Assembly (NCBI RefSeq): GCF_002980555.1 | Contig: NZ_PVBT01000001.1 | Location: forward strand, 1,302,001-1,366,000 | Length of the DNA: 64,000 nucleotides | Source of the DNA: Phyllobacterium myrsinacearum | GTDB taxonomy: Bacteria > Pseudomonadota > Alphaproteobacteria > Rhizobiales > Rhizobiaceae | Direction of reading: 5' to 3' | In this document: one piece after another, positions 45,992 to 48,971 of the stretch | How the letters are laid out: each line of letters opens with the position of its first letter | Position numbering within the stretch: position 1 is the first letter of the stretch | The notes under the pieces: model-generated | Databases searched by the model: none | Seen by the model: only the letters and a program-made list of their open reading frames with translations | Told to the model about the DNA's origin: nothing | Made by a program: the position numbers and the translations under genes

Positions 45992-46070
45992 GTTTTGGCG
46001 ATGGAACCTGTTTCAAATGGCGGTGCTTTGCATCGCCATTTTGTTTTGGGGGATGCGCTCATTAGCTCTC

Positions 46071-46228
46071 ACCCCCCTCTGGGCTGCCGCCCATCTCCCC
46101 CACAAGGGGAGAGATCAGCTTTCATCATTGTTCAGGCCAATTTCCAACGCCACAGAACAAGCAAAGCCGTTCATGCCGATGTGATCTCCCCCCTTGTGGG
46201 GGAGATGTCCGGCAGGACAGAGGGGGGT
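46071..46228. repeat. Paired C/G-rich palindromic element, copy 2
   Basis: Same architecture as the element at 14500: CCCCCCTCTGGGCTGCC, a CTCCCCCACAAGGGGAGAG hairpin, a spacer containing TTCAGGCCAA, then GATCTCCCCCCTTGTGGG and a final ACAGAGGGGGG. It lies downstream of parE and directly touches the dispersed repeat beginning at 46247. Confidence 0.85.
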
Positions 46229-46246
46229 GAAACGTCATTTGGCTGA

Positions 46247-46366
46247 AACTTATCCACCACGTCCCAACCTCGCTCATTCCCGGTGTGTCTTTCCGGCGGG
46301 AATGCTTCCGGAAACCTTCGAAAGTCAGGAAAGGACCGGCACTCCATTTCGCAGGCAAAACCTGCG
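46247..46366. repeat. Dispersed intergenic repeat R, copy 1
   Basis: About 120 bp beginning AACTTATCCACCACGTCCCA and containing TTTCCGGCGGGAATGCTTCC. Near copies lie at 47457-47542 and 48851-48971. Read on the minus strand it can give a spurious peptide with CRSFPDFRRFPEAFPPER, so it may be annotated as a false ORF. The rest of the gap up to the MarR gene (46367-46643) holds no gene I can support. Confidence 0.8.
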
Positions 46367-46684: not shown

Positions 46685-47203
46685 ATGAGTCCACAACTGG
46701 TTAATATGCTGGGAGCCTTGTCACTGGCGCTTGCCGATGCACAAATTGAGGCAGTTCAAAAAGCGAGCGGGATCGGAACCGCTGGCTGCGCAACACTTGT
46801 CGCCTTGGGCCATTATCCCAACCTCACCATCCGGGAGATTGCGACAATCGCAGGCCTCAGTCACTCTGTCATTGTGCGGACGGTTGAAGCGCTGGTCGGT
46901 GCCGGGCTCATCACCAAGGCGCCCGGCAAGGACAAACGCGAAGTCACGTCGCACCTGACACCCGAAGGCAAGCGGCTTCGCGACGACCTCATTCACGCAA
47001 GGGAATCCGTTCTCAAAAAAGCGCTCATCACCCTCTCCCCGCAAAATCAGGACGTTCTTCATGGCCTGGTGAGCCAGATGCTGGAGAACATGACCACGAG
47101 CCGGGACCAATCCGATCATCTTTGCAGATTGTGCGACGAGGATGCCTGCGGCCCCGATTGTCCCGTTGAAATGCGTGTGCGAGGCATGCACGGGGACGGG
47201 TGA
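46685..47203 (+). CDS. MarR family regulator with C-terminal cysteine cluster
   Basis: Regulator of 172 residues. The winged helix-turn-helix is at about residues 50-110 (LTIREIATIAGLSHSVIVRT, then GLITKAPGKDKREVTSHLTP). The C-terminus has four clustered cysteines in LCRLCDEDACGPDCPVE, which could bind a metal or sense thiol oxidation. ATG 46685 is used; an upstream in-frame ATG at 46658 lies inside the inverted repeat. It is flanked on both sides by matching repeats. Its targets are unknown. Confidence 0.85.
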   Translation: MSPQLVNMLGALSLALADAQIEAVQKASGIGTAGCATLVALGHYPNLTIREIATIAGLSHSVIVRTVEALVGAGLITKAPGKDKREVTSHLTPEGKRLRDDLIHARESVLKKALITLSPQNQDVLHGLVSQMLENMTTSRDQSDHLCRLCDEDACGPDCPVEMRVRGMHGDG

Positions 47204-47248
47204 TTTGCAGGGGGTTTTGTTTTTGAGGTAAGCGCTCAGTGGTGCTTT

Positions 47249-47439
47249 ACCCCCTCTGGGCTGCCGCCCTCCGGGGCGAGCCACGGGTCTCGCCCGTCCT
47301 TCGCCCCCCCCCACAAGGGGGGAGATAAGCTTTCAGAGCTGTTTCAGCTAATCTTCAAGGGTGAAAGTTGACCGAGATGGTTGATGCCGATGTGATCTCC
47401 CCCCTTGTGGGGGAGATGTCCGGCAGGACAGAGGGGGGT
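47249..47439. repeat. Paired C/G-rich palindromic element, copy 3 (with inserted segment)
   Basis: Same architecture as copies 1 and 2, but the left arm contains an extra segment (CCGGGGCGAGCCACGGGTCT followed by CGCCCGTCC) between CTGGGCTGCCGCC and the C-run hairpin. The right arm, GATCTCCCCCCTTGTGGG through ACAGAGGGGGG, is intact. It is followed within 20 bp by dispersed repeat R copy 2. Confidence 0.85.
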
Positions 47440-47456
47440 GAAACGCGATTGGATCA

Positions 47457-47542
47457 AACTTATCCAACACACCCCAACCTCGCTCATTCCCGGTGTGTCT
47501 TTCCGGCGGGAATGCTTCCTCACCCCTCAAAAGTCGGGAAAA
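47457..47542. repeat. Dispersed intergenic repeat R, copy 2 (shorter)
   Basis: About 86 bp beginning AACTTATCCAACACACCCCA and matching copy 1 through TTTCCGGCGGGAATGCTTCC, after which it diverges and ends earlier. With the adjoining palindrome arm, roughly 140 bp are shared with the sequence left of the MarR gene. Confidence 0.8.
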
Positions 47543-47574
47543 GGAAACGCAGCAGACGGAGCGGCGTCACGCAC

Positions 47575-47991
47575 TCATTTGTGCCTTGTGCGAATACGAT
47601 CAAGCATGTCAGCAATCACGTGATGCGGCTTTGATTTCATTATGGAATGCACGCCATCAATGCAATCTATCATATAGGTATGATATTCATCATAGGCGTC
47701 ATAACCCAAATATCCCAATATAGATGTGTCATCCAAAAAACAGACACCGAATATTTTCCGGCCGCCATCAAATAGAGAATATTTCACATTGCACGATTCA
47801 TGCACAACTGGCATGCGCACCAAATGAACCCCTTGTGATCTTATGGATTGATCATCGTTAAGCCACGCATAATGCGTATAGGTATGGACATGGTGAACAT
47901 CGTTGATATTCCGGATGTCTTTTTCTCCATAATTTGACAGAAGGTCCCTTTCGGCATCCCCTGTCAAATGTATGTTCTTGACTATTTCCAC
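47575..47991 (-). CDS. Hypothetical AT-rich protein, 138 residues (immunity-like paralogue A)
   Basis: I do not recognise this family. The protein starts at GTG 47991 and runs to 138 residues. It shares its N-terminus (VKNIHLTGDAERDLLSNYG) and a C-terminal block (KIFGVCFLDDTSILGYLGY, then HVIADMLDRIRTRHK) with the broken paralogue at 48100-48561. The region is visibly richer in A and T than flanking genes, a sign of transfer. Its position after a remnant of a small peptide frame, its size and its tandem duplication resemble immunity proteins of bacteriocin or contact-inhibition systems; this is inference only. Confidence 0.6.
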   Translation of the reverse strand: MEIVKNIHLTGDAERDLLSNYGEKDIRNINDVHHVHTYTHYAWLNDDQSIRSQGVHLVRMPVVHESCNVKYSLFDGGRKIFGVCFLDDTSILGYLGYDAYDEYHTYMIDCIDGVHSIMKSKPHHVIADMLDRIRTRHK

Positions 47992-47997
47992 TGACTA

Positions 47998-48084
47998 TCA
48001 AACCTGATCTAGCTTATGTGCTGGGCTTGCTGGAGGGCCATGCAAGCATCCGCTTGATGCCGCGACTGAGGGGCCGCGAACCAT
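47998..48084 (-). other. Remnant resembling the 3' part of the micro-peptide gene (28 codons)
   Basis: Between the two paralogous AT-rich genes, a short frame (ATG 48084 to TGA 47998) matches, at DNA level, the end of the peptide region that precedes the other paralogue. Both contain GCATC, an ATG, CCTCCA, then a CTAG and AGGTTTG just before the next gene. No leader with Gly-Gly is preserved here. I read it as the decayed tail of a duplicated peptide-plus-downstream-gene unit, with low confidence that it is expressed. Confidence 0.35.
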
Positions 48085-48099
48085 GGGCCTGGCACCTGA

Positions 48100-48561
48100 T
48101 TATAGCTTGTTTGAATATTTTGAGCGAACCTGATCGAGCATTTCGGCAATCAACGAAACGTTTTCCGAACTCGTAATGAGATTTATTCCATCAACGTAAT
48201 CAATGACATAGCTATATTTTTCGTTGTAGGTAAATATCCCGATATAGCCCTTTCGACAAGGAATGACGCCGCTAACCCTTACGCCGAAAATCTTCTGATT
48301 ATTATCAAAGTACGAAAATACATAATCATTAGCATCCTCAAAAAACTTTGTATTCTTTTGGAAAATGAAGTATCCACGCCTTTCAATTAATTTCGATTGA
48401 TATTTCAGCATATCTTCAAAGGAAGAACCTCCTTTAAAAATACCTCTATACTAATACACATTTATACAGTTTGCATCTCCATATTTATTTATATTATTAA
48501 TATCATAGTTTGACAGAAGATGATTTAGAGCATTATCCGTCAAAGCTATGTTTTTTACCAT
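48100..48561 (-). pseudogene. AT-rich paralogue B interrupted by one in-frame amber codon
   Basis: From ATG 48561 the frame reads VKNIALTDNALNHLLSNY, homologous to paralogue A, for 36 codons. It then meets TAG at 48451-48453, continues in the same frame through MLKYQSKLIERRG (ATG 48411), KIFGVRVSG and ends YSNKL at 48100. Removing the single TAG gives a protein of about 152 residues. It is either a recent pseudogene, a sequencing error, or a gene read from the internal ATG 48411. An AAAGGAGG lies upstream of that ATG but too far (16 bp) for good use. Confidence 0.7.
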
Positions 48562-48579
48562 TTTCTTCAAATGCCAAAC

Positions 48580-48654
48580 CTAGATTGTCTGAGGCGCTGC
48601 TGTTGTTGGAGGACATTCGCAGCCGATCAGATGCGGGCCGTAATCAAAACCACC
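48580..48654 (-). other. Possible frameshifted core region of the double-glycine peptide
   Basis: If one base is dropped just after the Gly-Gly codons of the micro-ORF (near 48655), the frame stays open for 24 codons. It starts GGFDYGPHLIGCECPP and ends with TAG at 48580, only 18 bp before the start of paralogue B. The stretch contains two cysteines in GCEC. This would give a precursor of about 40 residues, the usual size for small double-glycine peptides. Whether the shift is a mutation or a sequencing error cannot be told here. Confidence 0.35.
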
Positions 48655-48703
48655 AATCGCCGCCCCATACGAGATCGAGTTCGGCCTCCGTCAATTCACG
48701 CAT
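48644..48703 (-). CDS. Micro-ORF encoding a double-glycine-leader-like peptide (19 codons)
   Basis: ATG 48703 is preceded by GCGAAAGGAGATGAC, a near-perfect ribosome binding site. The encoded peptide MRELTEAELDLVWGGDWWF follows the pattern of double-glycine leaders (M-x-E-L-T, x-x-E-L-D-x-V, then Gly-Gly). These guide cleavage by ABC-transporter peptidases in class II bacteriocins and related peptides. The frame stops four residues after Gly-Gly, so the core is missing or frameshifted. It lies 82 bp upstream of paralogue B on the same strand. No C39-peptidase transporter is in the window. Confidence 0.55.
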   Translation of the reverse strand: MRELTEAELDLVWGGDWWF

Positions 48704-48850
48704 GTCATCTCCTTTCGCAAAAGTACGCAACAGGATGGGTGTCGCGCTCAAAAGATGACTGAATTTATCCATTTTTAAAATTCGCAGTCCTACCTAGGTA
48801 GCGCGAACCACGCATGATGGTCCTGCCAGCCCGTTCGAAAAAATCACGCC

Positions 48851-48971
48851 AACTTATCCACGTTCTCCCATCCTCGCTTATCCTTCTCCTCGTCCTTTCC
48901 GGCGGGAATGCTTCCGGAAACCTTCGAAAGTCGGGAAAGGACCGGCACTTCATTCCGCAGGCAAAACCTGT
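48851..48971. repeat. Dispersed intergenic repeat R, copy 3
   Basis: About 121 bp beginning AACTTATCCACGTTCTCCCA and rejoining copy 1 at TTTCCGGCGGGAATGCTTCC through GGCAAAACCTG. The gap 48704-49237 between the micro-peptide gene and lpd otherwise contains only this repeat and GC-rich sequence with no gene I can support. Confidence 0.8.

Follow-up and report, generated by a model that had tools for sequence, protein, structure and literature searches.

The stretch of DNA analysed here, called the window, comprises 64,000 nucleotides of contig C1 of the host genome, Phyllobacterium myrsinacearum (G000; 5.44 Mb, 44 contigs). On its minus strand, from position 48703 to 48644, lies a 19-codon open reading frame that runs from ATG to TGA and translates as MRELTEAELDLVWGGDWWF, that is, a double-glycine leader, MRELTEAELDLVWGG, followed by DWWF and the stop. 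The ribosome binding site AAAGGAG stands 5 nt 5' of the ATG, and the frame and its site were confirmed as a preliminary description of this DNA had read them. The 90 nt in front of the start (48704..48793, minus strand), which contain this site, are common to the precursor gene of Phyllobacterium calauticae described below (75/90 nt identical). Further along the minus strand, two short pieces of 27 and 25 nt are probable remnants of the 3' end of a cargo sequence, judging from their identity to the end of the P. calauticae cargo (48590..48616, 19/27 nt; 48014..48038, 21/25 nt). An immunity-like gene comes after each of them, broken in the first case and open in the second. The broken paralogue (48100..48564, minus strand) carries one in-frame TAG, has a longest open piece of 103 aa (48100-48411) and is 34% identical to the intact gene (E 1.1e-12). 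The open gene (47575..47991, minus strand) has a GTG start and encodes a 138-aa protein that is soluble by hydropathy. An immunity-like gene downstream on the same strand had been predicted and is present, but the nearest one is the broken paralogue (about 48112-48564) and the gene at 47575-47991 comes second. The AT-rich patch mentioned in the preliminary description exists at 48100-48600 (33.5% GC, compared with 60.5% for the window), but the micro-ORF itself has 55% GC.

The double-glycine leader

The micro-ORF fits the pattern M-R-E-L-x3-E-[hydrophobic]-x2-V-x-G-G at its N terminus, with the ribosome site in front. This pattern, which was picked for the simulation test only once the motif had been seen, matched once in the window and not at all in 100 first-order Markov simulations of 64 kb. 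A 15-position profile was built from three leaders, those of the window, of P. calauticae and of a second host ORF. When run on the whole 5.4-Mb host genome it gave two matches at E<=1, the micro-ORF (E 1.1e-8) and the second ORF on contig C7 (E 3.7e-8), both of which are thus included in the profile; the P. calauticae precursor was matched with E 1.7e-8. Together with the P. calauticae homologue, this result upholds the assignment as a double-glycine leader. Among 13 other leaders from the genomes searched in this analysis, arginine is the second residue in all 13 and glutamate stands seventh before the last glycine in 12, and the window leader has both. It differs from all of them in the tryptophan directly before GG, a place taken by S, A, T, Y or N in the others. 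Short ORFs and motifs do arise by chance in long genomes, and the micro-ORF could in principle be such a chance frame with a leader-like sequence. The empty simulations, the profile search and the open homologue of the precursor gene that P. calauticae has at this site led us to reject this explanation, whose probability we regard as negligible.

The second host ORF (contig C7, L026:4088-4387, minus strand) encodes a Gly/Ser-rich product of 99 aa with a GG leader. It is followed after 7 nt by a 268-aa ORF (L026:3274-4080, minus strand) with a probable signal peptide; the protein gave no NCBIfam match at E<=0.1, and we take it to resemble the periplasmic ClpP-like group.

A longer in-frame start at 48772, which would give 42 aa, was ruled out because in P. 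calauticae this frame is interrupted there by a stop codon, so that the MRELT start is the shared one. A promoter and terminator scan around the locus gave nothing beyond what shuffled sequences give. Four residues follow GG in the window, compared with the tens of residues expected of a cargo, and a 12-nt match to P. calauticae directly after the leader (E 0.12) suggests that DWWF may be an out-of-frame reading of cargo sequence.

The syntenic locus of Phyllobacterium calauticae

The homologous locus was found in P. calauticae R2-JL (G004), on NZ_JAGENB010000006.1. As in the window, the interval is bounded by a marR-type gene and lpdA, and in P. calauticae it contains an 87-aa ORF that is intact and has a ribosome site of its own. 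Its product, MRELTEAELDMVSGG-APGRSG...SNEPGT, consists of the leader MRELTEAELDMVSGG and a 72-residue cargo. The ORF ends 22 nt before a co-directional 138-aa ORF whose product is 69% identical to that of the window gene at 47575-47991 (E 5.5e-60). An intact precursor beside a homologue of this gene, named in the preliminary description as the evidence to look for, is therefore present, and at the syntenic site. Comparison of the two DNA sequences gave three main colinear blocks, with most of the cargo missing in the window. The first block (136 nt, 85%) covers the upstream region and the leader, of which 39/45 nt are identical; the second (111 nt, 72%, E 5e-13) opens with the first cargo-end remnant and runs into the start of the broken immunity-like gene; the third (478 nt, 77%) opens with the second remnant and covers the open gene. 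The loss of the cargo sets in directly behind GG, and the decay that had been suspected at this locus is visible in the comparison.

The intact syntenic ORF with the same leader and a 69%-identical partner makes it likely that the window carries a decayed precursor gene. The micro-ORF is probably the 5' remnant of a gene for an exported-peptide precursor with a GG leader, and the immunity-like gene has been retained. Homology, synteny and loss of the cargo at the locus are established at the level of sequence, and we infer export, cleavage, antibacterial action and immunity for the working form, kept as an open gene in P. calauticae. In that form the leader would direct the 87-aa precursor to an ABC exporter that contains a peptidase, cleavage after GG would release the 72-residue peptide, and the producer would be protected by the 138-aa protein that the next gene encodes. 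The window genome lacks most of the cargo just after the leader, the frame stops four residues later, and of the immunity-like genes one paralogue is broken and one gene is open. Orphan immunity genes elsewhere protect against related producers, and the retained gene may still do so here. Just one intact precursor is known, and its coding status therefore rests on its leader, ribosome site and position.

The leaders of the two genomes are separated by 3.5 synonymous and 2.5 nonsynonymous differences (p 0.02, from 10 synonymous sites and rounded counts). This synonymous excess, together with the preserved start, ribosome site and leader, speaks for the 19-aa ORF as a finished product, with the leader releasing just DWWF or the 19-mer itself acting as a signal or upstream regulator. 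We consider this very unlikely, since none of the 13 other leaders has tryptophan before GG, no exporter was found in the host or in P. calauticae, a broken paralogue and cargo remnants adjoin the ORF, and the pattern of leader differences also reflects the period before decay. For selection on the micro-ORF frame, raised in the preliminary description, the support is weak: synonymous differences are in excess, but six differences between two sequences are too few to conclude that the frame is under selection today.

The P. calauticae cargo is hydrophilic, with a largest 19-residue Kyte-Doolittle mean of 0.42, and contains one GxxxGxxxG motif; as many were present in 700 of 2000 shuffled cargoes. 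The precursor scored below the cut-offs of PF10439 (Bacteriocin_IIc; 11.4 vs 27.1 bits) and TIGR03949 (14.4 vs 21.5 bits). The search of the host genome with PF10439 gave 0 matches, and among 14 control genomes a match was obtained in one, Caulobacter vibrioides, under the cut-off. The searches with PF10439, the type of profile suggested earlier for a check, thus gave no match above the cut-off. The 138-aa partner had hydropathy values of 0.89 and 0.35 (soluble), compared with 2.75 and 2.35 for the hydrophobic neighbours of other P. calauticae GG precursors. Searches with the immunity-like protein gave no match at E<=1 in Pfam and NCBIfam and marginal matches in PHROGs (best E 0.001, a family of unknown function), and among PDB sequences the profile of the partner gave ten marginal matches (best E 0.3). 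Adjacency to the precursor gene is what suggests an immunity role for the 138-aa protein, and the soluble partner and hydrophilic cargo make a target other than the membrane possible. The same two properties, unlike those of membrane-active bacteriocins, and the lack of a match to any toxin or immunity family in these searches would also suit a GG-leader signalling or surface peptide, of which the P. calauticae pair and the window remnant would be representatives and in which the partner would have another role. This seems to us unlikely, as the layout is toxin-like: the precursor immediately precedes a partner that diverges fast, the partner has a second paralogue, and presence is patchy. The argument is one of layout and is not functional evidence.

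Divergence and distribution of the cassette

For the immunity-like gene, comparison of the window with P. calauticae gave dN 0.20, dS 0.74 and dN/dS 0.27 (synonymous vs nonsynonymous, p 1e-7), and these codon differences demonstrate that the partner gene has been under purifying selection since the two species, or their cassettes, separated. Synonymous divergence of the flanking genes was lower, dS being 0.21 for marR and 0.17 for lpdA (133 C-terminal codons compared), and the synonymous excess of the immunity-like gene over both flanks had a p of about 1e-5, from rounded counts. The 90 nt 5' of the leader start differ as much as the marR synonymous sites do (p 0.86). Taken together, the excess over the flanks and the marR-like divergence of the upstream sequence suggest an exchange or import of the cassette, with the upstream region as the resident part; it is also possible that the cassette alone has evolved faster. 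In the window the cassette is flanked by dispersed repeats (47499..47545 and 48895..48970), and copies also flank the P. calauticae cassette (L024:4528-4565 and L024:5700-5756, respectively). Such repeats, partly palindromic and with 49-nt arms that are 90% complementary, surround the marR gene and the cassette at 46022-46364, 47199-47545 and 48851-48970. They are possible recombination sites. A broader proposal, which we put forward tentatively, is that this is a polymorphic Phyllobacterium locus at which exchangeable cargo-plus-immunity cassettes are joined to a 5' region and a GG leader that are resident. The hydrophilic cargo would then act inside the target cell, and the soluble immunity protein, of no known family, would have become an orphan after loss of toxin and exporter.

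The immunity-like protein was found in two of 60 relatives, 21 of them of the same genus, and its profile in two of 394 genomes of the family, the host being counted in both cases; the two genomes are those of the host and P. calauticae, and no homologue was found outside them among the 394. A scan of named genome contigs, based on two short peptide patterns with which distant members could be missed, gave one immunity-like locus, that of P. calauticae. Neither plasmids nor viral contigs contained a match to the family. The precursor was found in one of the 21 genus genomes and in no plasmid. Among the 394 family genomes it was found in P. calauticae and at two further places, both probably due to chance, one inside a gidA-like coding region, named from its translation (G380, E 0.0039), and one inside a 1077-codon frame (G173, E 0.0062). 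When the lpdA flank was compared across the 21 genus genomes, leader, precursor and immunity-like sequences were detected in the host and P. calauticae only; of the 19 other flanks, 16 covered the full 1.5 kb and three were cut by contig ends. The marR-type neighbour was present in five of the 21 genomes at E<=1e-20, and in one genome (G012) it lay on the same contig as lpdA at a distance of more than 1 Mb.

Exporters and comparison with known systems

The preliminary description had proposed cleavage by a C39-peptidase ABC transporter, and this part of it was not borne out, as no catalytic C39 exporter was found in the host or P. calauticae drafts, which are about 99% complete. PF03412 (C39) matched 12 of the 21 genus genomes, with a single strong place in another Phyllobacterium genome (G007, E 2.3e-37), a weak match in the host (1.0e-5) and none in P. 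calauticae. The C39 domain of a transporter from the same family (G114) matched four of the 21, strongly in G007 (E 5.0e-57) and marginally in three others (0.002-0.007), with no match in the host or P. calauticae. The host C39-like protein is an HlyB-type exporter (TIGR01846, 916.2 bits vs a cut-off of 725.55) with isoleucine at the place of the cysteine of G007 and G114. The G007 exporter and membrane fusion protein (MFP), used as tblastn queries, had no match in the 20 kb around or beside the P. calauticae locus (L024 and L092) and, in the window, gave partial matches to the ATPase end alone, at least 18 kb away. The absence of an exporter from both drafts leaves secretion unexplained, even for the intact P. 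calauticae gene.

The HlyB-type exporter of the host, with its non-catalytic C39-like domain, is located on contig C9 (L025:600-5812) beside a large protein of at least 971 aa with many similar repeats, which is perhaps its type I substrate. In G007, a C39 transporter, an MFP-like ORF and four GG-leader ORFs of 42-71 aa, called by a loose pattern and a ribosome-site filter, lie within 16 kb (L091:598-8873), and this is the most complete cluster of its kind seen among the genus genomes here. G114 has a C39 transporter, an MFP (PF13437) and a GG-leader ORF, MRELNELEIDMISGG..., and the same leader type occurs near the C39 transporters of both genomes. Neither transporter reached an NCBIfam cut-off among the best 25 families, of which TIGR03796 was the best.

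Further GG-leader ORFs were observed in P. calauticae. On contig C44 (L080:6312-8320), a glycine-rich one, whose glycine-zipper content exceeds that of shuffled sequences (1/2000 reach it), is accompanied by a 102-aa ORF that includes a hydrophobic segment and by an MFP gene matched partly in one frame and partly in another. The 13 kb analysed at this locus gave no C39 transporter match, and the locus looks like a decayed cluster of the Cdz type discussed below. On contig C23 another GG-leader ORF precedes a hydrophobic 145-aa ORF. A fourth leader-profile match in this genome (C12, E 0.29, positions 5-12 only) was rejected, there being no leader ORF at that place.

The leader, too short for gene finders, was correctly read from the raw sequence and is confirmed by the sister genome. 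The locus draws attention to GG-leader peptides of Phyllobacterium, which have been little described, and adds a new precursor-partner pair that has no known relatives. It is also a natural example of an immunity-like gene that is still open where toxin and exporter are missing. Gram-negative bacteria have been screened genome-wide for GG leaders before; in a search of titles and abstract starts, no description of this peptide in Phyllobacterium was present among the matches listed.

The Cdz system of Caulobacter crescentus consists of CdzC/CdzD, CdzAB and CdzI, and Cdz-like precursors are defined by a length of 60-151 residues and a leader ending in G[G/A/S] (PMC5380434), with a CdzAB-type exporter expected within about 10 kb. 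The present system shares with it a small alphaproteobacterial precursor with an adjoining immunity-like gene; in length and leader the P. calauticae precursor (87 aa, GG) falls within the definition, whereas the 19-aa ORF of the window falls outside it. There are three differences from Cdz. Cdz toxins carry glycine zippers and CdzI is a membrane protein with three helices (PMC5380434), whereas the single GxxxGxxxG of the P. calauticae cargo does not exceed what shuffling produces and the 138-aa partner is soluble by hydropathy; and no CdzAB-type exporter was found within about 10 kb in the window or at the P. calauticae locus. Class II double-glycine bacteriocins (PF10439, TIGR03949) have the same leader pattern and cut site, but the P. 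calauticae precursor lies below both curated cut-offs and its cargo is hydrophilic. The C39 loci of G007 and G114 have leaders of the same pattern as the window leader and differ in possessing an exporter and in their other cargoes and neighbours. In pneumococcal blp loci with non-functional BlpAB, bacteriocin and immunity genes are kept despite the broken dedicated exporter, and such strains are reported to be able to use a second exporter, ComAB (PMC12150690), whereas none was found here. No homology to blp is claimed; the likeness to the pneumococcal case lies in the retention of genes without an exporter of their own.
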